In this document: piece by piece, positions 5,345 through 63,555 of the stretch
Numbering within the stretch: the stretch's first letter is position 1
How the letters are laid out: each line of letters begins with the position of its first letter
From: Chionis minor
Taxonomy: Eukaryota > Chordata > Aves > Charadriiformes > Chionididae
Length of the DNA stretch: 64,000 bases
Direction of reading: 5' to 3'
Assembly: GCA_013398295.1 (NCBI GenBank)
Contig: VZSF01008752.1
Span: forward strand, 62,001 to 126,000
Position numbers and translations under genes: made by a program
Notes under the pieces: model-generated
The model's input: the letters and a program-made list of their open reading frames with translations, nothing else
What the model was told of the DNA's origin: nothing
The model's database searches: none

Positions 5345-5501
5345 CGCCTCCATGTATCTGACACAAGTATGGAAATCGCCACACGTTCCCCAGACCGACA
5401 GCAAATCCGATACAGCTTAAAATATACTGGAACTTATTGTCCCACTTGGGTCTGCCATCTTCTTTAGGGATTTCAGGTGGCACTGATAAATCTTTTGACA
5501 T
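5345..5501 (-). CDS. SLC6A18: SLC6A18 coding exon 1 (5' part of gene only)
   Basis: First coding exon of a neurotransmitter-symporter-family transporter, 157 nt, ending in a clean donor (GGAGGCG then GTAAGA). It encodes 52 residues plus one base. A short acidic N-terminus is followed by [14 protein letters not shown] and the TM1 sodium-site segment [17 protein letters not shown], then HGGG. The exon ends at the same codon and phase as exon 1 of the neighbouring SLC6A19 gene, so the two are tandem paralogues. In mammals SLC6A18 (B0AT3/XT3, a kidney brush-border neutral amino acid transporter) lies directly downstream of SLC6A19 in the same direction, as here, which supports the symbol. The start is the only in-frame ATG before RPKWDNK. 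All later exons lie outside the window. A different SLC6A18/19/20-group member cannot be fully excluded from one exon. Confidence 0.8.
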
Positions 5502-5699
5502 TTTAATGAAATATCCTTGGCTCCTTAGCCCTTTTCCCTATAAATGGGAAGATGCTTCAAAACCTGCCTCTCCTACAGGTTTTATGTGGGATGACTGGAG
5601 GATCCTGGAAAGAGAGGTGGAGCTTTCCTTTTTATGTGATTCAAAGAAACGCATCATTGCCAAAGCCGCAGTTTAAAGACAAAACCAGGAATTTTATTA

Positions 5700-5706
5700 T
5701 TATATA
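5700..5706 (-). promoter_or_regulatory. SLC6A18: candidate TATA box of SLC6A18
   Basis: On the minus strand this reads TATATAA, about 200 nt upstream of the SLC6A18 start codon, which would give a 5' UTR of about 170 nt. A weaker TTTATAG lies nearer the start (about 5538-5545). Both are inferences from sequence alone. The region is AT-rich, so chance occurrence is likely. Confidence 0.2.
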
Positions 5707-7460: not shown

Positions 7461-7469
7461 AAAAGCAGC

Positions 7470-8415
7470 GCTACCTGCTGGGAACTTGGAAGTACTAGGC
7501 AATCATGGAGATGAGCCAGGGACTCCTGAGGTAATAGGTGCCAAGAGGGATACACCAGTGAAATACTTCAAAGGAATTAAGGGGTGTTCCTCTAAGAAGG
7601 TGACATGGCGAAGAGCCCACCTGAAGCTCCTCCACACCAATGCATCCACCATGGGCAAAAAAGAGGAGGAGCTGGAAGCCACTGTGCTGCTAGAAAGCTA
7701 TGGCCTAGTTGCCATTACTGAAACTTGGTGGGATGAATCCCATGACTGGAGTGTGGCTATCGATGCCTACAGGCTGGTCGGAAGGGACAGGCGAGGAAGG
7801 AGGGGCGGAGGCGTTACCCTCTACATCAAAAAATGGATGGAGTGTGAAGAGCTGTCTCTGAAGGATAGCCAGGTTGAAAACCTATGGGTAAGAATAAGAG
7901 ACTGAGACATCAAAGGGAATCTTGTGGTTGGTATCTACTAAAGGCCACTCAATCAAGATGAGCCTATTGAAGAAGCCCTCTTGCTCCAGCTACGGGAAGC
8001 ATCGCAGGGCCTTTTCCTGCTGGGACTTCAACCACCCTGCCACCTGCTGGAAAAGTAGCACAGCGAGCTGTAGGCAATCCAGGAGATTCCTGGAGTGCAT
8101 CAAAGATAACTTCTTAAGCCAGGCAATAGGCAGCCCCACCAGAAGGGATGCGATACTGGACCTGCTGGTCACCAACACAAGTGAGCTAACTGGTGATGTC
8201 AAGCCAGGAGGCAGCCTGGGCTACAGTGATCATGCACTGGTGGAGTTTGCAGTCCTGAGGGATATAGGGCAGGTGAAGAGTAACATCAAGACCCTGAATT
8301 TTAGGGCTCTGAGCAACCCCATCTAGTGGAAGATGTCCCTGCTCATTGTAGGGGAGGTTAGACTAGATGACCTTTAAGGGTGCCTTCCAACCCAAAGCAT
8401 TCTATGAGTCTATGA
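7470..8415 (+). mobile_element. CR1 LINE, internally deleted (endonuclease plus 3' end)
   Basis: Plus-strand CR1 non-LTR retrotransposon. From about 7620 it encodes the start of ORF2, the apurinic-type endonuclease. Visible motifs are AITETWWDES (about 7712-7741), GRRGGGVTLYIKKW, a DFNHP segment near 8027, and GYSDHALVEFAVLRD near 8220-8265. The frame is broken by a stop at 7903-7905 and shifts after it. At about 8318 the endonuclease coding sequence joins directly to the CR1 3' terminus (AGGTTAGACTAGATGACC, then TTCCAACCC and a degenerate ATTCTATG tail). The reverse transcriptase domain of about 2 kb is therefore missing. It is non-functional and sits just downstream of the SLC6A19 3' end. 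Confidence 0.9.
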
Positions 8416-11900: not shown

Positions 11901-14900
11901 AGCACGGGAAGACGGGCCACAAGGGCATTCACCCCATCGCCAGCAGCAGCAGAGCCGGAGGACCTGGCACAGGCTCAAGCAAAACCGACGGGTGATTGAA
12001 GTCCCGATGCCTCTTCCATATTTCTTACATACTAATTATGAATGGAAAGATGGTGAATTTTATTACATCTCTAGAAAGCTGATAGGATAATTACTCACTG
12101 CTGCAATTGATAAAGCCCTGAAGCTGCCAGCTAGGGAAGATTCTTGGTAGCCTTGGATTTGCATCCCGCTGTAAAACGATACCTGCAACCTGCCTGGAGA
12201 TCCCTGCCTCCGACCGTATCCTTTAGCATTTGCTTTAAGCACTCCCGGGATATACCTCTGTTTCAAACATTCCTCTCAGTGCCAACGCGCTTGCATTTTG
12301 CTTCTGCTAATTAAATATTTAATGCAATTATACTGAAGAAGATTTATTGTAAATGTCACTGTATTTAACGTGTAAATGAGCTATAGTGGCACTTCGGTAA
12401 CTGTTGCAAATACATACATTCTGATGCCTGCTTTAAAAATAAATTATTTACACTCATATTATTATACTCCAGGGCATTTGTTAATGCTTAATATCTTCTT
12501 GCAATATCTTACAGATGTGTTTATTTCAGCCTGTTGTTACAGAGCATTATCTATTGTCATATATTAATAAGGTGGAAAGCTTTCATGTACAAGTAAAAAT
12601 CCCCACTGCACTCTTAAAAAAGCATTTTTCCTTTTTGCCAAGAGATATTGTAGAAACCTAAATTGTATAAGCAACCTGAAACTGCAGTTGCATAATTTCA
12701 GTGATTTCTAGAACAGGAATTCTCTGCACTGAGACGCAGCAAGATTGCAGCTGTACAACTAATCAATTTATGCACTGGTTTCTAGCAAAGTTTAACTTGT
12801 ATTTCTTACCTGTCTATTCCATAAATGTAGACGACTGAAAACATCTCACAAAATGCAATTATTAGCAAGGGAATAGAGCCAGCAAAACTGTCGAATAGAG
12901 CCAGCCAGTAGTTACCAGAGTTCAGCACAAAAATAAAAGCCAGCAAGTAAGACCCCAAACAAATGAGACCTGTGAAAAAACCAAAACAACAGCACATTTA
13001 GGTAAAGAAAACTTAAGAAAAAAAATTAAGATATTTTCCCTGTATCTAGAAAGCTCTATAAGTAACTGTTATTTCAGTTGCAGCCTGAAGGTAAACCACT
13101 TTCTTTTTTAATGGTACTCTTTCCTTTTTAATGGAGAAGGCCAGCTTCTGTGCAGGTAAAATGGCAAAACTCTCCGATCATTGCACAGGTGGGAGATGCT
13201 GCAAACAAAACGGGAGAAGGCTGAGGAGACAAAACAGGTCCTCTTCCTCCTAGGTGGTGGGACAGTGATGCACTGAAAGAAATCCTGCGTGGGTGAAGGA
13301 CCCGGGTCCTCCAGCTTCCTCATGGAGGAGATGACAATCATCCTGAGCAGGCTGAAGGGCAAGCCATGGGGGGAGCAGCTGTCTGCAGGCTCAGAAGGAA
13401 CCTCACAGGAGTTACCCCCTTGGAGGCCGGAAGAAAACCTTCAGTAAGTTATCTAGGAGTCTTAGGACCATGCCAGATTGTAAAGTAGATGGCCGGTGGC
13501 TTGATTTTTAGGCATACAAGCTATTCGCTGGGGATGGAGGAGGTCACTGGTCTCTAAAAAAACACTTACCAGTAACAAGTTCCTTAGGCACTTTGGGAGG
13601 TATAATCTTAAGATCTTGTAACGGTACAAGCACACCTTCCATGTTTCCAAACATAGATGACAAACCCAGGCAGAAGAGCATGATGAAGAAGAGAATGGAC
13701 CACAAAGGTGAGACAGGCATTTTGGTGATAGCTTCAGTGAAGACAATAAAGGCCAGGCCAGTTCCTTCAACTCCCTGTGGAAGATTTCAGAAGCTCCAAA
13801 ACTAGGCTCATTAACACCGCGCAGCACTTAGATTTACATTGGTATTCACTAGACGTGGTGCATGCTACGCCATACCGCAATACTTTTGTTTCCACAAAGA
13901 CCTCCTAATGCAGCAATATACTTGCTGTAATTATATTACAAATTCTATTCCGTGGACACCTATTTCCATCTGTAATTCATGACCTTTTCAACAACAACAA
14001 CAACAACAAAAAGTGCACCCTTTTCATTCTTCCTGGAACTTTTTTCACCCCAGTGCCAAGGTCCATACTTTGTTGTGACACACTCGTACTGATCGGGACA
14101 GGGCTTGCTCCAGCTGGTTCCTCGCTCTGGGAATCTCTTCCCTAGTCATCTTTGTCCCACCAGGGCTGCAACCAGCTAGTTCCAGAGAAATACCTGCAGC
14201 TATTTTGCCAGTTACATGAGGTCAGCCTAGAACACTTATGGGTTTAGTTACTAGTCTGACAGTTTGCCAATACTTTTCAGAGGAATTAAACAGTTTATCT
14301 CTACAAAAGCAAGACGGAGTAAACAAAAGGGATTCTTCAGTCCAAAAGCAACCCAAGCCAATTGCAATCAATCCGTGGAAACATATATACAACCTCAGAA
14401 GAAAGAGCACTAGGCAATTAATAAATTGCTCTGCATTCCTACCATATTTACGGTAGTGATAGGAGTCAGGGTGTTAAACTTACGTCATTCAGGAAGCTTT
14501 CCAGATTACAAGTTTCAAACTTCAGGGTTGCAAAAGTCATTGGATCAGTCATGTTACATAGATGCTGCATTTGTTCAAAGTTATCTTGGGTTACATTACC
14601 TTCTGGCAAATCAAATGCATTCATCAGAGTAAGAATATTTCTGAAAAAGTGAAATAAAAGTAATTTGAAATTGTTTATTTGTAAGCATCCGTAGGATTCA
14701 TTTTCATCAGCAAGAAACTTATTAAGAGCACGATGCCTTTTATAAAGATACAAAGGAAGCAATGCTTTTGTTGCTTAGGATCAGATTTTGAAATCGGGAA
14801 GTCCAGCAGTTTTGTGCATGTGCAATTCTTTCTTTCTTCTTCCAAGGCGAGTCTGATACTGCAGAAATGACAGCTATTTAGGGCACGAAATGACAGCTAT

Positions 14901-29900: not shown

Positions 29901-31489
29901 TGCGCTGCCTTTCAACTTCTGCCTAAAATTTGAGTGAGAGAGTCCCAGGGAAGCAAGAAGCCAGGGATAACTGTTGTTAATGTTCCCGAGCAAGGGCAAG
30001 CCACAGGACGATGAGAAAGAAAAACAATTGCTGCCAAAAGATAAATTAAAACACAGCACTGACAGACACACACAAGCAATTCATGAATCTTCACTGGCAT
30101 GAGTCAGAAAACTATGATTGATGACAAGTGCTTTGCATTTGTCAGATATTCATTTTTTCAGCTGCATTTCATATGGCTAGAACCATATGGGGTTTTTGAG
30201 TGTCTTGTTACTTTTTTGTTATCAGAGTTGGTTGTGCTGCAAATGACCTCCAGTTTGCCCTGCAAATCCTAAACCACAGCCGATGTCAGAAAAATCTCAA
30301 TGTTAAAAGCATCTCTTCTTGCAACTGAGTCATCTGTTGTTAAACGTCTCTGAGTTTGTACCAGCAGCTCCCCACACAGCCCTCCTTGGTCCCCACTCTG
30401 ACTAGGAAGAGCAGCTTTGAAACACCTCACTGTGTATATTTAATGAAAATTACTTTGAAATACTCTTCCTTAAGCCAAAAGTTTTCTTTCAAGATCAGAC
30501 ACCACAAAAGAACAAATAGTTTTTACACATATCCCAGGGTGAAATGCAGATAACAGGTAGATAGTGGGCAGAAAAGGCTGATGCAAAATGAGAAATTTAT
30601 GCTGTCTTATAATATTTAAGCAATGGTTCAGCTCAAGATCACCTTTAAAACCAAAGAGCAAAACAGTGAAATAAAATTTTAATATGGTCCTTCAGTCCTA
30701 ACCTGAACCCTAAGGAGTCACCGTAAATTACATGGTAAATAGGATACATGTGGATTTTAAATGACTTAGTAACACCAGCTACTAAAAACATATTCTTAAC
30801 GTTAATTGCTTTCATACAGTTATTCCTATCATAAATTACACACATGCTGACCCTACAGCCAATGCACAGACAAGTCCAAAACCAATGAAAACCCTATTAT
30901 GAAAAGAGCATTTGGGACCATGATCAGAATCATACTTCCAAGTAGTTCATTAATATTTTTAAGTGTACGTTATATGTGTATGTATGAAATAACTTTAGTT
31001 TTAGATTGAGAAAACGTACTATGCATATGGCAGTGCAAAACTGATTTGATCATTCGTCTGTCCTAAAATAAAAACAACCCCTTCCTCTTCTTCCATCACT
31101 AACATGACTTCAGTGGGTGTTCATAACCTGTGAAATAACCTTCTCCATTAGACAGTCTTCTAGAGATGAACATCACTGTTCTTACAGGAACTGAACAGTT
31201 CTAAACATACTCCATTATTCTTTTCCCAAAAAAAGAGATGAAACATAGTTTATAGCAAAAGTTAGTTAAGATATATTAAAGACATACCTCCTCCGTGGCT
31301 CTGACAGAGATACGGAAACCGCCACACGTTTCCTAAGCCCACACAAAAGCCTACGCACGTCAGCATATACTGAGCCTTGTTGTCCCATTTTGGTCTGGAG
31401 TCTGCTTCTTCTTTCTCAAGGACCTCAAGTTCTGTGTGGGAAGGTATCCTGTCCTCCAGGCCAGGATTAGGCAACTGGAGCTTCACCAT
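8954..31489 (-). CDS. SLC6A19: SLC6A19, sodium-dependent neutral amino acid transporter B0AT1 (complete, 12 exons)
   Basis: Coding exons, in transcription order: 31288-31489, 23343-23483, 21657-21794, 20338-20519, 19479-19589, 18495-18607, 16089-16217, 14484-14640, 13570-13774, 12810-12969, 10370-10532, 8954-9163. All introns are GT-AG and all phases join, giving 1911 nt and 636 residues (human B0AT1 has 634). The product is a 12-helix LeuT-fold symporter that takes up neutral amino acids with sodium in intestinal and renal brush border. It needs collectrin or ACE2 as partner in mammals. Exon 1 holds [14 protein letters not shown] and the TM1 sodium-site [11 protein letters not shown], with Arg57 at the position mutated in Hartnup disorder. 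Other landmarks are VGLYYNTII (exon 3), [11 protein letters not shown] (exon 4), [18 protein letters not shown] (exon 6), NVTQDN (exon 8) and [12 protein letters not shown] (exon 11). N-glycosylation sequons occur in the large loop after TM3. No disabling change was seen. The sequence is close to mammalian B0AT1 throughout, so the assignment is firm. Confidence 0.97.
18970..19098 (-). mobile_element. CR1 3'-end fragment in SLC6A19 intron 5
   Basis: Begins with TATAGAATCATAGAATGACT, the reverse complement of the CR1 terminal repeat. It continues with GGTTGGAAGAGACC and the segment up to the ACCCGTCTTTTAAATACCTC stretch, then loses similarity. It is a 5'-truncated copy oriented with the host gene. 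It is very similar to the copy at 45329. Confidence 0.9.
22541..22772 (-). mobile_element. CR1 3'-end fragment in SLC6A19 intron 2
   Basis: Starts at CCACAGAATCACAGAACAGC and runs through GGAAGGGACATCTGGAGGTC to the GACTCCACAACCTCTCTGGG and TTCAGATGGCACCTCCTGTG landmarks of the CR1 3' region, reversed. It belongs to a different CR1 subfamily from the 18970 and 45329 copies and is more diverged. Confidence 0.85.
25200..27060 (+). mobile_element. decayed DIRS-like (tyrosine-recombinase) retroelement
   Basis: Plus-strand fossil in SLC6A19 intron 1, antisense to the gene. The order is reverse transcriptase, RNase H, recombinase. Reverse transcriptase: [11 protein letters not shown] (25306-25338) matches the family's [19 protein letters not shown] (from 25406) stands where YLDDWL is expected. 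[18 protein letters not shown] and [16 protein letters not shown] (about 25524-25680) match the conserved segment after the catalytic box. RNase [13 protein letters not shown] and MELQVARN (about 25890-25980) resemble the LELRAVRNA block. Recombinase: [20 protein letters not shown] (about 26410-26470) and a following [10 protein letters not shown] segment resemble the N-terminal part of DIRS-type integrases. Several stops and frameshifts make it inactive. Similarity past about 26.75 kb is weak. The match is from memory of family patterns, so a different Pol-bearing element is possible, but a recombinase after RNase H favours DIRS. Confidence 0.6.
27830..27880. repeat. TA-rich microsatellite
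   Basis: Imperfect TATATG/TATA run within SLC6A19 intron 1. Confidence 0.6.
29541..29559. repeat. poly(T) run in SLC6A19 intron 1
   Basis: A homopolymer of about 18-19 T. Similar runs lie near 21272-21290, 23815-23833 and 56618-56643. There is no associated element on either side that I can identify. Confidence 0.7.
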
Positions 31490-31609: not shown

Positions 31610-34600
31610 CTTTGGCACTAAACTTGAAAGTGCAGGCTTGTGGTAACAAGAAGCGTCAGCAAATCATTCGATTGACCAAGTCAGCTCTGACACTTATTAA
31701 TGCTTTATCTGTCAAGGTTTTATGGAACAGTCTGTTCATCTAGTAGAAGACATTGATTTCAGCTAATGTAATTCAGGAGATAATTTGGCTATAAACTGTA
31801 ATCGCCTATAATGTTATGAAACACCCCTTGCCACTCCCCTGTTTAAACTCACTTAAATACACATATAGCCCTAGCAAATACGGAGTAAAAAGATTCCACT
31901 GGCCTCAGACTCAATATAGAGGTTCCATACCAGTTTTTATCAGGAAGCTAAACTGCTTGTGAATCGCCATCACATTCAGTTTCCCATAGTTTATGCTTAC
32001 AAAACTGTGTCTTGTGATAATTACCCAAACGTGTTCTTCCTTCTCTGAAGAGATGTCATTCTACTAAATGCTCTGACAAAAAGGATGAAGAATGAAAAGG
32101 ATTATAAAATTTGACCTTTAAAATCATAAGCATAATTTGCTTACCCTAACGCTTCTAATCATTATAGAACAAGGTCTCAAGAACGTAACATCTTTCTTGC
32201 AAATGGACTTGAAATCAAAGGTCCCTTCATCTTCTCGTGACCCTGTGATTCACTGGTCAAAAATAAAAGAGACACTGGAAAACAAACATCACAGATACTA
32301 CTCACATCCTCATTCTTTCAGGGCAAGACTGTTCTATTTGTACCTCAGTGTTATCAAAAGGTAAGTACTTGCCTCTGAAGACTGTATATAAAATCTAACA
32401 CAGTATATGTCGTAAGAAACAATTTTGTCAGCTAAGCCTTACAGGCTCATTGGATACAACGATACCGCGTGGTTAAAATAAAGAACTAGAAGAGATCTTG
32501 TATGTCCACTCTCTGTCAAAGAAGGTGAACACATCACAGCATCCCTTTGTAACCTTATCATGTCATTTCAAAACTGACTTTTGTACTCCCTGTTTCTAAA
32601 AGGCTGGTCTAGAATTTCAGCCCTCTTATGTCCCAAGAAGGATGTTGATTACCTCTTGAACAGAAAAGTTACAAGAAAAGTCTTCATCCTTGACATGGAC
32701 AACTGTCTACAGTAGCCCAGATGGATTTTCCCCGTGCCTTGTAAGCAGGTATTAATATTTCCCTAACGTTACTTAAAATATCTAGCAATCTGCCTAATAA
32801 TAGCACTTGCCTTTTCCATGACCCCGTCAGCTCTGTGATTGAGCTGCCTCCTGATTAACCACTGGATCAAAGTCTTTCTTCTCCTTTGGCTTCCAGCTAA
32901 TATTTCCTAGCTTGCATCAGAGTTTCTTTTTCTAAGTTACCAAAAGCATGTTTTAAATTTCACCCGGTTACCGCTACTGCAGCACATTGAGCTACTCACT
33001 TCATCCTGAATGATACTTTTTCAGCATTCTGAGCACTTCTGAGTTGTGGCATCAGTATTTGACCAACGTGCTACTACTTTTTGTCCTTAGTCATTAGTGA
33101 AAGAATGACAAAAGACTGTTCCTAAACTGATCCTTGAGGAACTGCATTAGTAACCTTTTATTAGACCATCGTTTCTGCTTTCAGCACAGCTTTCCATCAT
33201 CATCAGATCTTTACCTAGCTCTTTGTTTACTTTATATCTCCTGTTTAGCTCACCCAATACATCCAGTTCTGGTCAAGTAACAATTGCTTTACCGAAGTCC
33301 AAAAAGATTACATTTAGAGTTCTTGCCTTATCTAGAAAAATCAGTTTTCATTTATAAGTGGCAGTAGAGAACTTTCAAATTGCAGCTCTTCAACTTCCAG
33401 TTTTGGAGAAAGACATTGACCTATTGGCCCATAGCAAGAAACTGCACGGTCCAGGAGCTCACAACTCATCTTTTTATTATTCAGGTTTATTATTCTGCCT
33501 CCTGAATCACTGGAGGATAATCTTTGTATTTGTGCTGTCGGGAACATGAGGCAGTAATAAAGAGTCAACAGAGGACAACTAGGAAAAAACATCCTATTTT
33601 GTAGTATTTCTACATTTCCTGACTTGTAGGCTTTAGTTCCACAGCTTTGCAAAGTTGTGTTGTAGACCCTCTTTCAATAACTGAATCAAATCATGATGAC
33701 ATGATGTCCAGGCAACATACCTTACAACTACAACTTAGTGACTCTATGTAATCAGAAATCTTTCACAATCAAAATTCTGTATAGAATTTATTGAACCTAG
33801 AATAGTATGTTTCTTCTTAAGCACAATGTAAGCTGACCTGGAAGGAATTAACGTAGTTTCCTTTGGGAATCAAATAATATGAGGACAAATCAATAAGATA
33901 TGAAATAAATTCACATTTGTGTTAGTATAATCTGAAAATTTCTCCCCGCTAAGTTTCATGTACAAGCAACTTCCACCAGGATCCAAAAATACATTCCAGA
34001 TTGCATTCTCCTGATTTAATCTTTCTGGAGAAGTTTATCTTGCTTCAGTAATGCCAGGTTCCAGCGGCTGTTAGTTATCTACCAGTTGTTAAATATTTGC
34101 AGAAACAAATATGCTGGTATAGCATCTAGCTCAAATTTCTTTATCAGTGTAATTGCACGGCTAATGATCTTGGAAGGCACAGCGCTTTTTCCTGAAGGAC
34201 CTGCGGTACCAATGACATCAGCTCGAACATGACCACAATTGCACGGAGGGGTTGTCTATATTGCCACCCTGTGGACTTGAGCAAACAAGTTGGGGATGCT
34301 CTGCGGTAGTCACAGCCACTTGCTTATTTGCCAGAGCCCTTTCCTCTGCTCTGCAGTAAACTTCTCCTTCAAGTAACACAAAGCTTCAGTTTGGCACATC
34401 CCACAGGGCTTGTTATGGCTAATAAACAGCTAGGAAATGAATCCTTTCACAATATAGGCTGCTAAACAAGACATGCTTTGCAAATTGCTAATTATAAATG
34501 CTGGAGAAAACGGGTCTTACATTTAGATTGGATTACCTGTGTTAAAACATTTCTAATGACACATTTATCTTTTTGTCAACTACCACCCACATATTTTTAA

Positions 34601-34850
34601 TGCACTATTTTTTTCAAAAGTGTGTAGAAAAGTAAGCCAACTTGTGCATAAGTAACTTACAAGTTTACAAAAACTTGATTAAAAAGGAAATATCCCCTTT
34701 CTAAAAGTCCTATATTTTACAGGAATATACACATATATACATTTGTGGAAGAATATAGGTGTATTCCTTGTATTAGATGAAAATGTTTTTCATCTCACAG
34801 GATGATGATGTTAGGAAAGAGAAAGAGCACGAAAGGGGGTAGCAGTAAAG
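31610..34850. other. intergenic, upstream of SLC6A19
   Basis: No gene was recognised. The stretch is AT-rich, apart from the possible diverged LINE entered separately. It probably includes distal control sequence of SLC6A19. Confidence 0.4.
32490..33345 (-). mobile_element. possible ancient CR1/L3-like fragment
   Basis: The reading reversed resembles old CR1-group sequence. Phrases such as CTGATCCTTGAGGAACTGCA, the later CCGAAGTCCAAAAAGATTAC, and the CATTCTGAGCACTTCTGAG stretch occur in the same order as in diverged amniote LINE copies I know. There is no open frame. The call rests on pattern memory only. Confidence 0.3.
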
Positions 34851-35330
34851 AAAAGAAATGGCAGTAGAAGGATATCGGGGGGTAAGTCAAGACAACAGCT
34901 AGGATGGAGCTGCTCGCTTCCCTCTGCGGGGCCAGATCCGGGCATGGTGCGGTACCATGAGTACTGTCCCTGGCTGGGAGACAAGTCCTTTTCTCCCTTG
35001 AGGTGCAGGTGCGTCCCCTCCCAGGCTGACCACCTAGTAGCTGCTCCTGCTTCTGACCTTGAGGGGGTCTCTCTTCGTGCTGGCATGGGGACTTCTGGGC
35101 CAGCACAGCTCACTCGCTCTGCAGGAAGCCATCCCCACATGGAGAAGGGCAGGTTCTTCTCTCCCATGAACCAGTTGATTTGACTGAAGGACCTGGCTGA
35201 AGAGCCTGACATTTTCTGCCCTCCACCATGGGTTGGAGGGGACTGAACTGGCGGAACCTCTTCTGGCTGGATCTTATGAAGGGGAGGACAAGGAGCAGCC
35301 AGAAAGACAGAGCAGGGTCCTGTTCTTTAA
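34850..35330. other. GC-rich unassigned island
   Basis: A GC-rich patch in an AT-rich neighbourhood, with open frames of about 75-135 codons on both strands (for example 34944-35183 plus, 34811-35212 minus). The frames are rich in Ser, Pro and Arg with no domain I recognise. It could be an old retroelement gag-like piece or simply a GC-rich relic. Confidence 0.3.
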
Positions 35331-35659
35331 GAAATACAATTCCTTTCATTTTGCCTTACAATGTTCTATACTATTAGCATTAAGTACATTATTTTCTGAC
35401 CCTTTTTGGTACCATAGCAGATACTGGTGTGAAATCTCTTATACTAGTGATTCTATAGCAATATATCACCAGCATTAATCGTATTTTTTTTTCAGTCAGC
35501 TTCTACTTTGTAATCAAAGCAACATATACAGCAATTACAATTACTCTTGGTTGTGTGATGAGCCTAAAACAGGAAAAGGTGGAAATGTAAAGAAAGTGGT
35601 AACTATACAGCTAAATGTCTAAAGCACAGGATTCTCATTTGGAAACATAAAGTGGTAAA

Positions 35660-35745
35660 GATGTGATGAAAGTGAAGGAGGAAAAGGAGGAGGAGGAAAA
35701 GGAGGAGGAGGAGGAAGAGGAGGAGGAGAAGAAGACAACAATTCA
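35660..35745. repeat. (GGA)n purine-rich microsatellite
   Basis: GGAGGA/GGAAAA repeats. On the plus strand they give a Glu/Lys-rich artificial reading frame. Simple-sequence DNA, not coding. Confidence 0.9.
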
Positions 35746-37689
35746 GAGGTTAAATGAAATGGTGTCTCTGACAGCCTGTCCCTGGCAAATTCTGCTTGGA
35801 TCATCTTTTAAAATATGTGCAGAAAATACAAATTCCTCTTATGAGCTGCCAATCAGTAAAATCCTTCACCGGCTATGCAAAGAGGGAGCACTGAACCCAA
35901 GGTTCAGGAAGAGACTCAAAATTGTCGGCCTGGGGGACACTAATGATCATATTAGAACAGGAGATATGCAGGTAAAATGTCTCGGAGTTGCTTAGTTCTA
36001 AGGCTAATAATCAACAGCAGGTGGTTATGGAGTTTACCTTGCCAAGAAATGTTCTGTAGATCTTTAACTTGATCTAAGTTTTATGCTTTGTTGTTCTCAA
36101 ACTCTACCTGATAAGTAACCAAAAGACACAGCTCCTCAGCTGGCATGATTTGATTTGCCATGTGTGTGCTTCAAGGCTGCTGCTGTCAGCCCACAGCAGT
36201 TCAAGCAGGAATACTGTGAGGGCTTTGGAGAAGTTCAATGAGCTTTGGAGGCTAAATCTCTTTCTATGCGATTGTAAAGTTCTCCAGATGGGAGGGAAGA
36301 CCTTTAGTGGCAGCAAGGATGACTGCAGAGGAGAAACTCCCACAAGCATCCTGTTCTGGAATGTTTTTCTGGTGTCAGGGAATTTCCTTCACCAATCTGA
36401 CGTGCCTGGAAATTGCCAGTCCATGTTTATTGTGGAAGCAGCAGTGTCCTTAGCCACAGAAGAATTAAAGGGAACTAGCTATGAACATCATGTCTGCTGC
36501 AGTTCATCCAGAACTGAGCTGACACTGACGCCCATATGGCACTTTTCTCCTTGTTTATCTTCCAGAAATACACGTGATCTTTATTTTTGTGCATACCGGT
36601 AGTCTGCATAATACTTACTTCAGCTTTGTATATAAATATTTCACTGAAGTAACATCAGCTCCAGCAGCATCATCCTTCTCCTTTGTTTTGTTCTTCTGGT
36701 TGACACCAGGGAGGGAGACGTGCTGTCCCTAATGTTGCACTGCATACGTTCAGAGGATCCCCGAAATACTGCTTTTGACTTTGAAGAATATATTTCACCC
36801 TTGGGATCTCTTTTGGGGGAAAGTACAGGTGAGGTGGATAGGTGTAGAGATGCCTCTGTGGACAGTACCAAATTGATCTCATGATGGCTAGCATTGCCCT
36901 AAATTTCTTAGCTAGTAAAGTGCTATTGCTTGGATCTTTCTCACCACGTGCATCTCTAACAGGTAACAGAACATGTAGATAATTGTAAGTTGTTGCTTGC
37001 CATGTTCATTAAGCAATGAACAGTGTTCTTTAATCAAGGTTGTTACTGTTTTCTTTTCCGGTGCTGTAGCATACAATGAGATGCTAACGGGTTGCTGAAC
37101 TACATCCAAATCCTGCATGCCACCTTTGCATAAAGCTCTACCGCAATACCCACTTTATTGGAGACAAGTTCATTCTGTCTCGTTCACCAAACACTGCAGT
37201 TTTTTATCATCTTTCTTGTTATTATGCTGCGATCGTGTTTGGACCAGCGAGGTCTGACCACGGAGCATGGGAGTTGTGCTCCAGAGGAGCTCAAGGCGAC
37301 AGAAGGTGCTGCTGAGGCTGCTGGCTGGAAGAGCCATTAGCCACAAGGGGGAGGTAGTATTTAATAACACGAAGCACCAACCGTTTTCGCTGAGGATTTT
37401 GTTCTGATTGTGTAAACTGAGTTCAGAAGTGAGGGGGTCTGAGACATACAAACCCGCAGGAGCAGTTTGGAAAAGATGAAGAGGTGTTTCTCCAGCAGCC
37501 GGACGGCTGGAGCACAGGGCTGTTGGGGGTGCACAACAGCGAATGGCCATCACAGCAGGTCTCACAATCCCTCTGCACTCTTCAAACTCTTCCACGGACT
37601 CTTTGTTTCCAGAGGCACCATTTACTTTCAGTTGTTTGGTTGTTGCCATCAGTGTTATAAATCGTAGCTAGCACTTTCAGGTCTATTTT

Positions 37690-38750
37690 ACAGGTAATGT
37701 TTCATCTTTTCACTTTCTCTGGTGGCTATTCATAATCTGTAATTAGTCTTTTTGCACAACTCCTTCCAGAGTAATTTCTCAGACAGTGGTACCTTGTGAG
37801 TAGGATTATATGCTATGACTGCGCTTGTCCTTTTGGAATAAAGTTTGCCACACAGGTGGCTTGTCGGCCACCACCCTTAGTGCTGTTGTACAGTGGGAAA
37901 TCACATGTACAAGCTGGGAGGTGTGACCATTTTTTAACAGCCCTTCTGATGTTAAGGTCCAGACTTCACATCCTCTGTGTCTGCATGGCTCACCAAGTAT
38001 GTGAGTCTTGGTACTGCGTAGGTCTTCAGAGTTGCCAGCATTCTATAAGAGTTTTGAAAGAGCTTTTCCCATGTTAGAAAACCAAGAATCAATATTCAGA
38101 TTTAGATGTCCCTTTCCAAAGGTCAATTTTCAACCCAGGGTATTTTTCAGTGTCCTAGAGCAACTGTGTTTGGCTTATGTTGAACACCTTCCAGTGCCTG
38201 CAGGCATGGATCGTTTAAGAGTCCTGGGCAGGTTTGATGAAAAAGCCATGACATTTCTCCCTCCTGGCTTTTTCGGTCAGTGCACTCACAGGAAGGTTTC
38301 TACAGGAGAGACATGTTTTGCATCCTCTCCCATTTGTTGCTTGGCAGGACCAAGCCATCAGCAAAGGCAAAGGTGGTAACCTGTCCTTGCCACATTGCGG
38401 CATTTGCTCTGGCGGAATCCATAGCCATCTTTTTCTAGGTTGCAGAGTAATGGATTGATTGGGTGACATTGGATCCCCTTTTCTGACGTTGACCTTGGTG
38501 GCAATTGGCTCAGCACGACCCTTTTTCAATTTCAGATGAGTGGAGGCACTTCCAGATCAATTTGCATCTGACTACATGCTCAGATAGTTCTTTTTACTTC
38601 AGAACCATAGGGTATGTTCATGTGTCCCTGAGTAGGCGGCCTTGGCCAGTTCTGTGAATACCGCCCAGAAGGGTAATGTTTTTTCCTAGTATATCAATGA
38701 CCAGTTGGAGTGATTTTACACTCTCAGAGCACCCAGGTTCAGCTGTAAGG
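37690..38750 (-). mobile_element. decayed R2-clade non-LTR retrotransposon (reverse transcriptase part)
   Basis: Minus-strand fossil read from high to low coordinates. Landmarks in R2 order: EPGCSES and SEHVVRCKLIWK; VNVRKGDPMSP (KGDPMSP 38461-38481); NPLLCNLEKDGYGF; FAFADGLVLP (38342-38371), where active elements have FADD; KCHGFFIKP (38230-38256); EKYPGLKIDLW (38116-38148); LKTYAVPRLTYL (37994-38029); IRRAVKKWSHLP (37915-37950) followed by ACTCDFPLYNSTKGGG. The last two blocks are typical of the segment after the reverse transcriptase in R2-type proteins. At least four frameshifts and several stops interrupt it, so it is dead. The N-terminal zinc fingers and the C-terminal restriction-like endonuclease are not recognisable, and no 28S rRNA sequence flanks it. 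The clade call is from motif pattern; a near relative of R2 is possible. Confidence 0.75.
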
Positions 38751-39633
38751 GCTCTTTGTCACCCTTTAATAGGCCCAGCTTTTGTATCCTAGTTGTCAGA
38801 ATCCATGAACAGAGTATTAAGATGGTTGATCAGATTGTGATAGGTCTCTCAGTTTTGCCACCTAGGTTGAATTCCACATCAAAATAGTTCTGTGTTCCTT
38901 GATACTACCCAGTAAACATGTTGCCAGCCATCAGTTCAAGTTCTGCTGCTGACGCTGATGTTGTGAACATCCCTCAATGGTGTCTTCAGCTAGATGGACT
39001 GAGACTTCTTAAACTGTTGTTTGGGTGGATTCTTATAATCCAGTCGGCCTGTGGACCTATGTGACCACCACAGTGTGTGCATGATCGGCTTTTGTTGATT
39101 ATCTTAAACCTTGTAAGATTTTGCTCATTTTAACGATGAGCAAAAGGCAGCCCCGCATACCCATTCTTGCATAGGCAGGAGCAATTTCTGCTACCTATAA
39201 AAAGTTATGGATGGTTCAGTCAATTCCTAAATTGACAACCGGAACCTCCTGGGGAAATCCCTGCCTGTGCACTGCCTCTTTCACCCCAAGTGGTTAAGCA
39301 ACATATCTAAACACACGGCAGGCCTCTGTTAGCTTACATGCGGCAGGACCTCCTGGGGAAAACCTCTGGCATGGCCCCAGCTGGTGGGAGAGCTCCTGCA
39401 GCGGTCAACTGTTTGGTTGGGAAATGGCTGGCATATGAGCCCATCTCCTCGTTGCCAAGCTAGCCTAAATGTGAGTGAGTTACTTCTTTGCAGATCTGTC
39501 TGTTGTCACAGCTATGCAGTGATTAGCTAGAGAGCTCCTGGAATTAATGACTATACGCCCGTGGCACGCACACAGGCAAAGCCTTCATATCCACCTGCCC
39601 CACCACTGTGACTGTAGAGTAAACTTGAATTTC

Positions 39634-39750
39634 ATGGAATCAATGAATCACCGAATCACCAGGGTTGGAAGGGACCTCTGGAGATCATCTAGTCTAACCC
39701 TCCTGCCAGAGCAGACTCACCTAGAGCAGGTTGCACAGGACGGCATCCAC
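39634..39750 (-). mobile_element. CR1 3'-end fragment
   Basis: Begins with degenerate AATCA repeats (GAATCAATGAATCACCGAAT), then AGGGTTGGAAGGGACCTCTG and GAGATCATCTAGTCTAACCC, ending around GCACAGGACGGCATCCAC. It is the reversed 3' end of a CR1 copy, 5'-truncated. Confidence 0.85.
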
Positions 39751-39759
39751 AGCTGTAAC

Positions 39760-42700
39760 TAAAATTCCATTTATTTTGCCACAATACCCGAACCGCTGAC
39801 CGCTGTTTCAACCTTGCATCCTGCACAGAGGGGCTCTCGCTATTTTCTCAGCCTTATTCAGGAGAACTCAAAAGTGTAAGGAAGAGGTAAAAGTGGGGCT
39901 TGAACGGAGCTGTCACTTCCAGAGTTCAGCATCCCTTTGAGCGAGACATGCCATGTTGGTGGTCTCCCGGCATCTCCTATCTAGGCAAAATGAGCAAGAG
40001 AAGAGCAGGCCCTCTGGTCTGCTCCTCTTCACCCGCCCCCTCCTCCAAGAGCATTTTCTGAGGAAGTTTTCCCTTTCCTAGCACTCAGGCCAAGTTCCAT
40101 GACGTCCAGAGTGTGTCTTGTGTTTCTCGTTGCGTTGCACACACCCAGCACAGCAGCTGTATTGCACAACAGACACACCAAACAGAACTTTTTTGCTTTT
40201 ATTAAAAGAACGGGATGTCTCAGGGCATTTCCCTGGCTGTGTCTAAATGCGGGAAGCCCTATTGACACAGCCACTGCCCAGCGGGGTACAGACTGGGGAC
40301 AAGTTAGCTGTGAAGCCCATGTGTGTAGGTACTCTCAGCATACAGCCCACCAGGACTCAGACAAGGCTGAAGACTTCCCTGAGGGACGTTTCCTTCTTGG
40401 ATGCCTGTGAGGCAGACACCCGGAGCGGAGCCCATCCACCAAACGCAGCACCCCTATCAGGAGTTGAGCTGACCCCATCAGTTGAGGACTTGAGCGAGTT
40501 TCCTTCTGGAAAGGAACCCGCAGACTTCCATCCCGTAGCAGCCCTAGGACACCTCTTCCAACCTGCACAATACTAACTTTCAGGAAAGGCTGTGACCTGC
40601 AGACGTGCGACCCACCTGAAAAATACGTGCATTAAAAAGATACCCCAAACTCCAAGGCTTGAACAGCGTGGTAATTTAAAATTGAAGTTATAATAACAAA
40701 TAATAAGTTATAATAACAAATCTAATACCAGCTTTTACTCTCAGTTTGATAACAAGCCTCTTTTCGTTTCCAGTATTTCACAAGGATGGCATTCTCCATG
40801 TGAAGGTGAGGGATGGGTAATGGCAAAGGATTGTGTCAAATACAAAGAGATTAAGGATCTTTTACAAAGGCAACAAGGAGTGTCTAAACACTGTCCTAGA
40901 GCAGCTGGATTGTAGTTCTTCACAGAGAGCAGGAAAATAAGAAAGTTCTTACAGGGAAACAAAAAGCAGCTGATGTGCAGAATGAGACATGCGAGGGATT
41001 CTGGAGGAAGGCAGAATACCCTACGCTAACAGACAGACAGAAGGAATTACCTCAGTCTTTCAGTGGGAACGTCATCTTTAATTGCTCATTAAAGCTGGTG
41101 CATTTATCTGTTTAACAATGCTGTTCTTTCCTAAGAAAGAAAAAAACCTTTCCAATATATTCTCTTCTCACCATAAAGAGCAAAACTTTTTACATGCCCA
41201 TTTAAAAACTGTCCAATTTGTAAAACCTAAAAATTGTGCAATTTGCTCAGAAAGTTGGAATAAACCAGCAAATTCCACTCCTCCCACCCACCTTGCCCAA
41301 GTTACAAAACAACGCAGAAATATGTAAGTGCTTTTATTAATTGTTACTGTTTGTTTAACAAGTGAGTGACCTTTTTCAGAACCAAAAAAAGTTAATGAAA
41401 TATTTTGGAGACACATTATTCTTGCATTCTACAGATATATGGGCATTTCCAAACAAATAACCAATCTAGAACAATAGCTGTTGGGCAAGTTAAAGCACAC
41501 AACAGAACTTTCAACATAACAACCTACAAAGGGGGGATGTTTCAAAAATATGTAACATACCAACAGACACGAGTTTTGGTAGAAACTAATAGGAACGGTG
41601 CTTCTAAACCAGTTAAAACACTGTTAAAAATCCTCCCCAAATAACTCTTCAGTCTTAATATACTGATCTGCAAAGTGCCCCTGAACAGCAGTTCAACAAT
41701 TCTTTGTACAAATAATTGACACTTCTCAAGAAGTGAAAGCAAGTATCAAACATTTATTAACATTACATCCAACCCTGTGCAGTCGAGCATATGATGCTTC
41801 AACTTACATATTTATACTGAAAAAAGTATTTTACCCCCTTGATTACATTTTCTTTAAACATTTAGTGATGTGACAATCTATGAAAAAAAATGAAAAAGCA
41901 TAAAATACATGATCTTGCAATACTAAGAACTCCAGAGTATGTACAAAGTCAAGGCATGTGTCTTAAATACACAGGCGTTGATTCACTGTTTGTCAGCCGA
42001 GTTGTTTAACTGCCTGTACGTACATATGAAATGTGCCACAGCTGTGTGGTCAGACACCCTCCACATCCTGGGGGAATTACATGCAGGGTAATTAGTTGTT
42101 CAATCTAATTTGTTCTACCGGGCAATTATGGCACATACATGTGGCCAGCTACAGCAGCTCGGCTCAGGCTGTCACACATGAGGAGTAACTCAATTGCGTT
42201 CTCATCTCCCAACCCGCACATCTTGGCATCCAGACAAATTTTGGCCTTTCTGGTGCTTGTGAAGGCATCTCTCTTCCCCCCCCCTCCACCCCCCCAGTCT
42301 GTCTGTCTACTAGAATTTTATTTTAAAAAATAAGAAAAATAAAATCAGTATATAAGAGACTAATAAATCAATACAACAGTATAATTAACACCACCAAGGT
42401 GAGCAAAATCACAACTGGAAAACCGAGTAGTTGGAAAACATATATTCTGTTTAAGAATTTTCTTTCACGTTAAGGTATTTTTGCTGAGTAACTGGATTAG
42501 GTTGCACACACTGCTTCAAAAGATTTATCTGTTGTCTTCTGTGCCTAGCCAGAAATGAAACCAGGAGGAAATAACAAGAGAAAAACCCACATTGCTGGAG
42601 TTCTTCGTTAAACTTGGATGGGCACTCACTGAGCTGGATTGCTTCTGAGCCATGCAGTAGCTGACTGCCTGCCTAGAGCAAACATGCCTGTCAAGTCTAG

Positions 42701-42950
42701 CCCTCAGTAAATAAAGAATGGCTAATTAAAGAACTGACAACCTACCAACACTAATCAAAGTCAAGCAACAGAGAAGATCAGACGTTAGAAACAAAAGGGC
42801 AAACATTGCCCCTTTGAGGTTTAAGGCTGGATTAGAAAGGAAAAAGAAAAAAAGTTATCCTCCAAAATACGTGGCACATTTGAAAAAGGAGGTGGTGCCT
42901 ACCGCTACAAGGATCTGAAGGATACACAGTTTTAAGGGGTTTCAAGCATG
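39760..42950. other. intergenic, 3' of CCDC127
   Basis: No gene was recognised. At 40.0-40.6 kb a GC-richer patch has open frames on both strands with no known domain. Beyond about 40.6 kb the DNA is AT-rich, with a short pyrimidine tract at 42270-42300. Part of it may be an extended CCDC127 3' UTR. Confidence 0.35.
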
Positions 42951-42975
42951 GAAATGCATGGGGGTAATTTTTTAA

Positions 42976-43005
42976 TTTATTTTTAAATATCTAGATCTGT
43001 TTATT
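42976..43005 (-). terminator. CCDC127: candidate poly(A) signals of CCDC127
   Basis: Two AATAAA hexamers on the minus strand (43000-43005 and 42976-42981) are the first after the CCDC127 stop. They would give a 3' UTR of about 1.25 kb. Later candidates at about 41.75 and 41.33 kb cannot be excluded. Confidence 0.35.
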
Positions 43006-43649
43006 TTACTGCACTAACTAAAGTAAAAAGCTCCCTTTCTTACAAATTTGCAACGCTTGTACAGCTGTAGGCTTTCGTAGTCGTGTGTATGTGAAGTGGT
43101 GAACCATAAGCTCAAAATTTAAAGCCATGGAAAAGCATCCGTCGGTTCTGGGAGAACTGCGGCAGGTTGGGAAGGGAGGTAGTGGCTACCAGCGCAGGCT
43201 GTATTTAGGTTCCTCTCTGTGAGTAACAAACTGGGCCTGTCCAAGGGCCAGAGCCAAGCCCAACGGCTCTAACGCAGGGAGGTTCCTGCACGCTAACCAG
43301 GCTCCAGGCAGCGCACTGGGACACAGAGGCAGCAGCACGCTGATGTCGGCAATGGAGGCACACTGTTGGGTTACAACTCAAACCTTGGCTAAGAGAAAAA
43401 TGTGAGTATTCTTAACGTATCTCCAGTGTGATGAGAATGTAACTTTGAGTTTATACGCTCTCTGGCATTCAAACACGGATTTCTAGTTCCAATGAGACTT
43501 TCATTAATCTGTGTCTTTATGTATTATTTTAGTTAGCATCTTTTGGATATTTCCTTCATAAAGCACTATTTGTATGTTAAGCTGGAAAAGAATGGAAGAC
43601 CGATTAATCTGAAACATGATCATACCATTTCCCCCTTCTGAATACTAAC

Positions 43650-43710
43650 ACATACATTTATATATATACACACACGTATATAGAAATGTACATATATATA
43701 CATTTATGTG
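43650..43710. repeat. TATACA/TATA microsatellite in the CCDC127 3' UTR region
   Basis: Alternating TATATA, CACACGTATA and CATATATACA units. Simple-sequence DNA. Confidence 0.7.
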
Positions 43711-44224
43711 ACATGCTCAAACACTGCCTCTTCCAAACATCTGCCTCAATATCAGTCTTGCTTAAACAAACAAAAGGACAAAAAAAGAATAATAATGAAA
43801 AAAAAAAGATAGCTTTGAGACATCACGTAAAACATCAGGGATAAGGAGTACAATGTGCTACTCCACTTAGGGGAGACAAATCACATCTTTCTGTTGATGG
43901 AGTATGACCTTCAACCAGATAAATCACTCTAAACAGAGTTCTGTTTTGCTGCTTCTGGTACCTATGGAAGCTGGCATCTCTCTATACTACACTGCAGTCT
44001 GCAATACAAACACACTCACAGAGTTTAAGAGCATGCATAGCTCACTGGAGCATCTGTCGTTAGTGAAAGGAAAGGCACCAACACTGCACATGTCCCATGC
44101 AAACACAAGTGCAACGAGGAGGAAAAACGGAAACATAGTAGGAGAATTTAACAGCTTCAGACTACAACTGCGATTGTCCCTACTATGCACGGTGGATCAC
44201 ATGAAATGCCATTAGTTCCCCCAC

Positions 44225-45988
44225 TTATCGTTTTCCTAACATGGCCTTTTCTGCCCTCTTGAACTTCTGTAGTTCAATAGCTAGTTCCCAATATCTCAGA
44301 TACAGCCACATAAGTCTTCCATTTTGACTTTTGTTTCTGTTCAGCAGATTGCTACAGTAATTATCATGCCTGAAAATATCTTTTAAGCCACTTTCCATAT
44401 GTAGAGTCATAGCAACAGGATCAGTTGCTGCTTTAACTAGCAGATTTTTCTCTATTTCTAGTCTCTGGCTTCTGGGTACAACAAGACTGCAGTAGATGTC
44501 CTGTCTTTCTTTAAGTCCCTCTTCAAATTCTTTTAGTAAAATATTGGCTCTCTTTTGCCACTCTTCTTCCTTTGCCAGACAACTTTGGTACAAGTTACCT
44601 GCCGCTCCTGAGTGCAAAAGGACTTGTTTTTCTCGCTCTAACTTCTCCTGCTCCTGCTCTAGGATCCTTCTTTCTTCTACTAGTTTGCGACTCTGGGACA
44701 CGAGGGCTTCACGGTAACTCAGGGTTCTGTTGCGTTCCTTTTCAAGCTCCAACTCCAAGTGAGCAACTGTGCGACGACTTTCTGTGATTGTATCTCTGTA
44801 TTTGGCTTCCAGGTCTTTTTGTAAAGATGAATGTTTTTTATAATATTCCTTTTTTTCCCTTTCTATTTCTTTTTGACATTCTCTGGTCCAGATCCAACCT
44901 ATCATATATAAATGAGACTTCAGACACGAGTATAACACATATAACATTGTTGGGTATGATTAATTAACTATGTCTCTAAAGAAGCTATTGAATGGCAAAA
45001 AACTTTCTTTCCTGCCCTCCCCAGTGATATTCACTCCTATTCACATGTCCCACAAAATGTATTTCTGTGGGTCACGTGAAATGATCATACTTTCTTTGAA
45101 GTAAAACCTCCCTTAGTCTTTTATTGCTAATGCATACATTTCTGGGATTCAAGAATGAAAATAAAGTTACGGGGAAGCAAACTGGAGGTTTCCAATGCGG
45201 GAACTGCCCTGAGAACTTTTCAGGCCTGGTAAATAAATATATATCAGCAGCTCCTTGGGTTGTTACCTCTGGGCTGTCTAGCACATCATGCCTCCGCTCT
45301 TCTGAAAGAGCTTTGTAAACTGCAGCTTATAGAATCATAGAATGACTTGGGCTGGAAGAGACCTTCAAGATCATCGAGTCCAACCATAAACCTATGCCAA
45401 AACCACCCCTAAACCATGTCCCTCAGCACCACGTCTACCCGTCTTTTAAATACCTCCAGGGACGGTGATTCCACCACCTCCCTGGGCAGCCTGTTCCAAT
45501 GCTTGATAACCCTTTCGGTAAGGAAGTTTTCTCTAATATCCAACCTAAACCTCCCCTGGCACAACTTGAGGCCATTTCCTCTTGTCCTGTCGCTTGTTAC
45601 TTGGGAGAAGAGATTGACCCCCACCTCGCTATAACCTCCTTTCAGCTTAGTAAACACAGAGTCAGTTCCATGCGTGAAAAACGGCAGTTGCCTTAATGCT
45701 ATAAACAAAGCTGACTGTTTATAACACGAGAAACCAGCAGACCAGCGGGAATCCCTAGGTGGGGCGCCACGACACTGCTGCAGAGCCTCCCCTCTGGCCG
45801 GCGGGGGAGAGGCCCGAGCGCAGCCGCCCCCTCCAGCCCCCCGCAGACGGGCCTGGCCGCTACTTACGGAAGGCGGCCAAGCCCAGCATGGGGACCAGCA
45901 AGGCGTAGTTCCATCTGCTGCCTTCATCCCCGGGCTCCCGTCGGTTTGGCAGGATGTTCCAGTTGGGAGGGTCATTTAAGTTATTCAT
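44225..45988 (-). CDS. CCDC127: CCDC127, coiled-coil domain-containing protein 127 (complete)
   Basis: Two coding exons: 45868-45988 (121 nt) and 44225-44898 (674 nt). They are joined across a GT-AG intron of 969 nt at a split Arg codon, giving 264 residues (human has 260). The N-terminus [12 protein letters not shown] and the hydrophobic [20 protein letters not shown] (one likely membrane or signal-anchor segment, about residues 26-44) are followed by a long charged helical coiled coil (about residues 48-135: [47 protein letters not shown]). A conserved C-terminal part includes [13 protein letters not shown] and [21 protein letters not shown]. The function of the family is poorly known, and I assign none beyond a probable membrane-anchored coiled-coil protein. 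It stands head to head with SDHA, as in mammals. Confidence 0.96.
45329..45645 (-). mobile_element. CR1 3'-end fragment in the CCDC127 intron
   Basis: Longest short CR1 piece of the window. It starts at TATAGAATCATAGAATGACT and runs through GACGGTGATTCCACCACCTC, the AAGGAAGTTTTCTCTAATATC block and GAGAAGAGATTGACCCCCAC to ATAACCTCCTTTCAG. Similarity stops there, giving a 5'-truncated copy of about 317 bp oriented with the host gene. It is well preserved, hence fairly young. Confidence 0.95.
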
Positions 45989-62599: not shown

Positions 62600-63555
62600 G
62601 AACGAGCTGATCCTTCCCTCCCATCCTCTGGGAAGGGCTGTTCCGCGGCTCCGCCGCTGCCCTTGGCAGAGGGGAGGTGGTTTTTCCTCAGGCCGGGGGG
62701 GGGCGGGCCCTGGGCCCTGCGCTGAGGCGCTTCTCCCGCCGCCGCCGGCCCCCCGCTCCCCGCCCCGCCCGCCGCAACCCATTGGGCGCGGCGGAACCTC
62801 GGCGGAGATGGACGGCCCTGACGCTCGTCCGGGGCGGGCCCCGTCTGTCTCCCCTCCCCTCCCGGCGGCCGGCCCCCCGCGGTGCTCCCCGCCGCCCTCG
62901 CCATGCACCGCTCACTCCGCGCCTGCCGCCGCCTCGGCTGNNNNNNNNNNNNNNNNNNNNNNNNNNNNNNNNNNNNNNNNNNNNNNNNNNNNNNNNNNNN
63001 NNNNNNNNNNNNNNNNNNNNNNNNNNNNNNNNNNNNNNNNNNNNNNNNNNNNNNNNNNNNNNNNNNNNNNNNNNNNNNNNNNNNNNNNNNNNNNNNNNNN
63101 NNNNNNNNNNNNNNNNNGGGGGTGGCACAGGGACAGCGGTGACCTCTAACTGCCGCCGCCGCCGGGGCTCCTCCCACCGCACCTCGCGACACCCCCGCCC
63201 CCCCGTTAACCGGCCGGAGGGAAGGGCGGGCAGCGGCAGGGCGGCAGTCCGCTCCGCTCCCCCGCGGGGAGGGCGCCGGCACCGGCAAGGCCTTCCCGGC
63301 CGTCCCCAGCCGTTCACCCGCTTCCGCCGGTGGAGGCTGCGGGGCCTTGTCCCCGCCCCGGGCGCAGCCGGAGTTGCAGCCGGGATTTGTCCGGGTGCTC
63401 CACCCGCGGGGCTGGGGGCGGCGGGGGTGAGGGCTGCGGCGCGGCAGGGTGGTGTCGGCCGGGTAACCGGGAAAGGTGGGACCTGCCGCCGCAGAGCCGT
63501 GGCGTGCGGGGCTTCCTCCGCGGGAACGGCGGGGCCTGCCTTCGGGCGCTGAGGC
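62600..63555. promoter_or_regulatory. second CpG island, probable promoter/first exon of the next gene
   Basis: Extremely GC- and CpG-rich DNA with GC boxes (GGGCGGGG) and an inverted CCAAT box (ATTGG at 62781-62785). It is interrupted by the assembly gap. Very long open frames on both strands result from the composition and the Ns, and none has a recognisable domain. By position next to SDHA this could be the PDCD6 promoter, since PDCD6 follows SDHA in human. No PDCD6 coding sequence is visible, and the first exon may lie inside the gap. Confidence 0.55.
62941..63117. other. assembly gap (177 N)
   Basis: An unresolved run inside a CpG island, typical of GC-rich sequence lost in sequencing. 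Its stated length may or may not be real. Confidence 1.

Follow-up and report, generated by a model that had tools for sequence, protein, structure and literature searches.

The genome of Chionis minor contains, between SLC6A19 and CCDC127, a long-dead fragment of an avian R2 retrotransposon, which lies within the 64,000-nucleotide stretch of DNA analysed here (the window). The best explanation, to which we give a probability of roughly three in four, is that this fragment stems from an off-target insertion primed by about four nucleotides, TAGC, and then decayed. R2 normally lives only inside ribosomal RNA genes and is a textbook case of strict target choice; the element is now being built into gene-insertion tools. 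On its own, the window fossil is an ordinary dead fragment and, as an object, one more dead bird R2 outside rDNA; the part worth following is the signature found genome-wide at the ends of its sister copies. Fossil ends with four-nucleotide TAGC priming would document, from nature and in the germ line, where R2 misses, and would let the biochemical rules established in cell culture be checked against evolution.

The fossil is made up of the following parts of the window:

37819 to 38847, minus strand: R2 reverse-transcriptase fossil, from RPITI to IPKGQAQ, model columns 549-901 of 1225 (frameshift-aware alignment and PDB matches)

38321 to 38383, minus strand: block with FAFADGLVLPSNKWERM, in which the catalytic FADD reads FADG (alignment and translation)

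37819 to 37965, minus strand: longest single-frame run, SLDLNIRRAVKKWSHLPACTCDFPLYNSTKGGGRQATCVANFIPKGQAQ, of 49 codons (inside the query that matches an R2 chain at E 2.9e-16)

38848 to 38960, minus strand: candidate weak upstream continuation, columns 505-546 (collinear HMM piece of -3.3 bits, alone not significant)

37771 to 37818, minus strand: candidate weak downstream continuation, to column 917 (tail of the HMM match)

When the fossil is aligned, with frameshifts allowed, to the consensus of 17 intact vertebrate R2 proteins, 333 residues are covered at 45% identity, and 15 inactivating changes emerge (4 stops and 11 frameshifts). This alignment scores 498; the opposite strand reaches 39, and 20 shuffles give 34-49. 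These values were obtained with stiff frameshift penalties; looser ones were dropped because they gave noise at both ends, with six shuffles scoring 149-217. An HMM of 17 vertebrate R2 proteins, searched against window 35000-42000, matches in collinear pieces from 38847 to 37771. The first-pass annotation of this DNA had listed seven motif blocks in R2 order on the minus strand and across frameshifts, and all seven are present (KGDPMSP, FADG, KCHGFFIKP, EKYPGLKI, LKTYAVPRL, IRRAVKKWSHLP and TCD..YNSTKGGG). The FADG that it read in place of FADD is real, both in translation and in the HMM alignment. Its extent of 37690-38750 was about right, with a core that starts ~100 bases further upstream and ends ~130 bases earlier.

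Solved structures point to the same family. The block from LKTYAVPRL to IPKGQAQS retrieves three chains up to E=10, all of them R2 (9nl3 at 2.9e-16, R2Tg 9dou at 4e-16 and 9nl2 at 2.5e-12), and the upstream single-frame fragment matches 9nl3, 9dou and 9nl2 weakly (E 0.007-0.01), together with one unrelated chain at E 0.92. Within window 35000-42000, there is no significant HMM match for the N-terminal zinc fingers or Myb domain, and no HMM match past column 917 of 1225 for the C-terminal restriction-like endonuclease; a covariance model (R1, from five own-genome 3' ends) finds no avian R2 3' UTR in the window at E 1. Lacking zinc fingers, endonuclease and 3' UTR, the fossil therefore consists of the reverse-transcriptase core only, an internal fragment from which both element ends are gone.

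Alignment scores separate R2 from other reverse transcriptases in a comparison set of nine R2 proteins and seven own-genome reverse-transcriptase ORFs. The window fossil scores 478-527 with three bird-group proteins and one turtle protein, 371-384 with two fish proteins and 92-145 with three more distant R2 proteins. Scores with the longest ORFs of seven own-genome loci that match other reverse transcriptases are 36-44, inside the shuffle range of 34-49. We presume these seven ORFs to be CR1, and CR1 is rejected as the identity of the fossil given their shuffle-level scores. That CR1 or another LINE was mistaken for R2 has a negligible probability when the own-genome ORFs are set against the 92-527 of the nine R2 proteins, among which the bird-group and turtle rows score highest. 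The earlier assignment to the R2 clade rather than CR1 is thus borne out by the R2-only structure matches, the alignment score, the tree and the low scores of other reverse transcriptases.

In that tree of 32 rows, which the first-pass annotation had proposed as a check, the window fossil falls inside a 14-row bird R2 group with support of 100/100, and within this group it joins cuckoo, swift, condor and own-genome fossils (96/94). It has a long terminal branch of 2.1, and the own-genome fossils included are the window copy and three others that were long enough. Constrained trees do not reject the fossil as sister of the other bird-group rows (p 0.33) and are borderline for a position outside birds plus turtles (p 0.078). 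By sequence ancestry, the window fossil is a bird-lineage R2.

The location between two genes that was noted at first pass holds, as indicated by the flanking exons:

13562 to 13768, minus strand: SLC6A19 (B0AT1) exon (E 4.6e-35 to B(0)AT1 vs 1.6e-19 to SIT1/XTRP3; SNF family match)

44228 to 44881, minus strand: CCDC127 exon, its 3' side facing the fossil (96% to CCDC127 of Leptosomus and Mesitornis)

Contamination or a misjoin in the assembly is very improbable as the source of the fossil, which carries 15 inactivating changes, sits within a 327,692-base contig between two genes, and shares the assembly with at least 20 other contigs that have R2 remnants.

The window copy does not sit in the 28S target site and so is not a resident, site-specific R2; insertion in that site is part of the R2 definition used in PMC13188248. 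A search for 28S sequence at both ends had been suggested earlier, and none was found in the window by Rfam, by a short 28S core or by BLAST with 28S stretches. The 28S stretches of 2.0-3.0 kb gave no match at E 0.01 in the window or in eight R2 loci. Eight Rfam matches in window 33000-44000 (E 0.04-5) were dismissed as chance, none being near its gathering score, as was a 17-base exact 28S match in locus L057 (6776-6760, E 0.001), which lies on the opposite strand and ~130 bases inside the 3' end of the element (6903). The first-pass annotation had treated the missing 28S flank as evidence of how the copy arrived, a reading that is not supported: the fossil is internal and lacks both element ends, so an absent 28S flank says nothing on arrival. 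The mode of arrival must therefore be inferred from sister copies, in which ends are preserved.

R2 remnants occur on at least 21 contigs of the assembly, nine found by protein, seven more by the 3' end and five more by the 5' part. A genome search in which a bird R2 protein (P0001) served as the query returned 45 matches, drawn from 42 scored candidates out of 4898, which makes the contig count a lower bound. Fourteen of these rows on nine contigs were taken as R2 (C1633, C1263, C3472, C3334, C3517, C3226, C3043, C677 and C932), and the other 31, at 23-29% identity, as other reverse transcriptases. R2 3' ends added C2549, C1117, C3554, C3885, C2883, C919 and C2953, and R2 5' parts added C414, C2565, C2567, C3183 and C3207, with C2567 and C3207 counted by match alone, their sequence unread. 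For the DNA search with the 3' end, the count excludes 36 of 40 rows, whose match is confined to the repeat lying past the end of R2. Weak protein matches on C2939, C2785 and C1664 (E 0.39-9.3) were set aside, the two that were read (C2939 and C1664) having no R2 motifs, and so was a 42-base row on C2613 in the 5'-part search. No second copy of the window fossil emerged when the genome was searched against itself at the DNA level, and pairwise BLAST of the window against the fetched loci gave a single match in the R2 region, of 110 bases at 73.6%, to C1633.

Several sister copies show further features. One is located within an intron of a myosin heavy chain gene (L058, C1263:331600-341500, R2 at ~4655-5191; best match Myosin-10) and has the highest identity to the R2 model, 61%, of ten stretches aligned. 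Another locus (L053, C3472:67600-77500, 3853-6548) holds two R2 copies head to tail, the second 5'-truncated, an arrangement expected from template jumping or from a second insertion; this second copy and L055 begin at the same R2 residue, ~661 of P0001. On C3885, C2953 and C2883, the 5' part and 3' end of R2 are only ~0.6-0.9 kb apart, so that these copies look internally deleted and are apparently non-autonomous R2 forms. An internally deleted R2 copy has been described in the budgerigar (PMC5035012).

The 3' ends of these sister copies share a short signature. Eight of 11 have an exact TAGC after the last AAA of the element (L053, L054, L055, L059, L060, L061, L064 and L066), and the other three read TAGT (L065), TGGT (L057) and TCAG (L063). 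TAGC is the sequence of the first four 28S bases past the R2 site. The DNA beyond it differs from copy to copy and is not 28S: the 28S continuation would read TAGCCAAATGCC, with which L053 and L061 agree for two further bases, L054 and L060 for one, and the four others for none. With equal base frequencies (1/256 each), the chance of at least eight exact TAGC among 11 ends is 9e-18. One of the eight, L053, enters a second R2 copy after ~15 bases and may therefore be a tandem junction rather than a genomic flank; leaving it out gives 7 of 10. L065 (TAGTCAAAAATG) agrees with 28S at seven of its first eight bases, and a longer 28S match may be present at that end.

The way in which these ends were collected bears on the count. 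The element end was placed before TAGC on the basis of published work and the known 28S site. The DNA query for 3' ends contained TAGC, and L054 was first picked by a regular expression containing it; when TAGC was left out of a covariance model based on five other 3' ends, L054 and L057 were recovered, and the pattern that yielded L063-L066 ends short of TAGC. A match of L052 to the 3'-end covariance model at E 0.78 was rejected as chance. One copy (L055) sits in a dispersed repeat. A paralogue of this repeat (L062) shows no R2 over the 251 bases that were read and carries TAGC at the corresponding position. In this comparison, the 3' flank alone scores 221, and the 5' flank alone scores 37, which is not above the maximum of 41 in 300 shuffles. 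Comparison of the two loci suggests that TAGC was part of the target before insertion.

The 5' ends retain a different piece of 28S. Four of six (L068, L069, L070 and L072) carry a 21-27-nucleotide stretch like 28S from -28 to -2, a likeness reached by none of 500 shuffles in each case, and the leader of L072 matches 28S at 24 of 24 positions. These leaders directly abut the R2 start, and the DNA further upstream is unlike 28S. The leaders of L057 and L067 are not significant, being reached by 112 and 29 of 500 shuffles, respectively. Local alignment with shuffles replaced an ungapped comparison in which L057 matched at 7 of 24, L067 at 10 of 24 and the others at 18-24 of 24 positions. The leader length fits self-cleavage of R2 RNA at -28, which has been predicted for zebra finch R2, among others (PMC3774820). 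Rfam identified no ribozyme in seven R2 loci. As a separate observation, three of the six 5' flanks (L057, L069 and L072) end in GTT just before the 28S-like leader, which may be chance.

These ends suggest a course of events. An R2 resident in 28S would be transcribed together with the rRNA, and an HDV-like ribozyme would cut the R2 RNA 28 nucleotides upstream of the element, a step that we infer from the leader length and published work. The R2 protein would then nick a wrong site at which TAGC happens to form the downstream bases; such a site would be usable because avian R2 needs only ~4 nucleotides of 3' pairing to prime. The inserted copy would subsequently decay. An rRNA 3' tail of 4 nucleotides is sufficient in vitro for avian R2 proteins (PMC11371274), off-target sites in human cells have a 4-5-nucleotide match downstream (PMC12222951), and avian R2 off-target sites in human cells have little in common with rDNA beyond the primer-complementary bases (PMC11371274). 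By analogy with its sisters, the window copy probably arrived in the same way. No 28S target was found in the assembly, which precludes comparison with a resident R2.

Two other origins must be weighed against off-target insertion. A piece of rDNA containing R2 could have been moved here by segmental duplication or repair, its 28S flanks later decaying or being lost, and this is an unlikely but not trivial alternative. It gains from the window copy lacking both ends, so that its flank is unreadable, from published bird R2 remnants with fragmented 28S flanks (PMC5035012), and from the 28S agreement at the 3' end of L065. The 28S part of sister copies with readable ends, however, extends only to about -28 on the 5' side and, in 8 of 11, to +4 to +6 on the 3' side, and does so at different sites, and the 2.0-3.0 kb 28S stretches match nothing in the window or in the eight loci. 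A separate R2-like lineage with another target or no target specificity, like the flatworm R2NS, is less probable still. Many dispersed copies might be expected to reflect such a lineage, but the window copy and three other own-genome fossils fall inside bird R2 in the tree, and sister copies retain two marks of a parent carried in 28S, the leader and TAGC. No young, near-identical pair was seen among the ten copies compared, with distances of 0.25-0.85 for pairs with enough shared codons. A fossil that groups with ordinary bird R2, together with the leader and TAGC of its sisters, makes a separate lineage unnecessary. Of the three origins originally offered for the fossil, off-target insertion is thus the best supported, through the sister copies rather than the window copy, and the related lineage is needless.

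Comparison with known systems places the fossil in context. Bird R2 elements belong to the A3 lineage (PMC5035012). The window copy resembles R2Tg of zebra finch (9dou) and other avian A3 elements in that its best structure matches are R2 chains, R2Tg among them, and in its position inside bird R2. The window copy differs from these elements in being only a reverse-transcriptase fragment with 4 stops, 11 frameshifts and FADG, outside 28S. R2 occurs in 25 bird orders, Galloanseres excepted (PMC5035012), so the initial description of R2 as patchily distributed in birds was too strong. Remnants of bird R2 bordered by fragmented 28S or by non-rRNA DNA have been on record since 2016 (PMC5035012), and those in non-rRNA DNA are of the same kind as the window fossil: dead bird R2 outside intact rDNA. 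In the available text of that study, these remnants are not explained by off-target priming, whereas TAGC and 28S leader ends are counted here. Off-target insertions of avian R2 in human cells have primer-complementary bases just downstream (PMC11371274, PMC12222951), as at 8 of 11 3' ends here; they were engineered in culture, whereas the present copies are old and germline. Our literature searches found no description of natural off-target bird R2 scars with TAGC and a -28 leader, which is weak evidence of novelty.

Non-specific R2 families occur in flatworms (PMC5035012). R2NS-1_SMed and R2NS-1_CSi share with the window copy that they are R2-clade elements outside 28S, but they are lost-specificity families in R2D and R2C with some copies >98% identical to consensus (PMC5035012), and no young family of that kind turned up here. 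ANKRD55-like gene models of California condor and king vulture (P0002 and P0003) offer another parallel, an R2 reverse transcriptase in a single-copy bird gene model; the gene is a different one, and the R2 part is open in models that the source marks as low quality. The R2 stretch in these models indicates an R2 fossil in or next to the ANKRD55-like gene in those birds.

Among the comparable copies, the window copy has diverged furthest, at 0.57-0.85 to the others vs 0.25-0.56 among the rest over well-aligned codons. C932 was left out of this filtered comparison because it has too few well-aligned codons; in the unfiltered comparison, its single pair (with C1633) lies at 1.09, above any window pair there, and C932 may be as diverged as the window copy. 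Three-point arithmetic gives the window branch a length of ~0.50-0.54 substitutions per site vs 0.02-0.07 for C1263. Birds evolve at 2-4 substitutions per site per billion years. At these rates, the window branch would span 125-270 million years, a value that is inflated by misaligned codons, uncalibrated and not relied on. The window copy may predate crown birds, although it is nested within birds in the best tree. More tentatively, and with real doubt on our part, the copy might have been inserted in the stem-bird lineage before the living-bird split, in which case every bird, chickens and ducks among them, would carry it between CCDC127 and SLC6A19; avian R2 would since have gone off target repeatedly in the germ line by four-nucleotide TAGC priming. 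Orthology at this locus is a simple way to test whether the fowl lineage, from which R2 is reported to be absent, formerly had it. Among the best 120 of 237 matches, the CCDC127 exon is 95% identical to hoatzin, 92-93% to duck and swan, 91-92% to cassowary and emu, and 89% to quail, and it is 85% identical to the first passerine row among the matches listed. Judged by this one protein, the host would probably be a non-passerine member of Neoaves.

Two further features lie between the flanking exons and the fossil or close to it:

39637 to 39749, strand unassigned: dispersed repeat ~0.8 kb from the fossil (76-86% matches in L057, L053, L055 and L017)

31217 to 31396 (C3043:93217-93396), minus strand: first-exon-like SNF family match, the SLC6 exon nearest the fossil (two TAA within its span)

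We take the dispersed repeat to be a CR1 3' end, and ORFs at 7345-7905 (plus strand) and 45409-45975 (minus strand) presumably represent CR1 pieces, which they resemble. Positions ~62900-63100 of the window consist of unknown bases (X in translation). SNF-family exons extend across 5340-31396 on the minus strand and include two first-exon-like matches, at 31217-31396 and 5340-5453, an arrangement that suggests two SLC6 genes in tandem.
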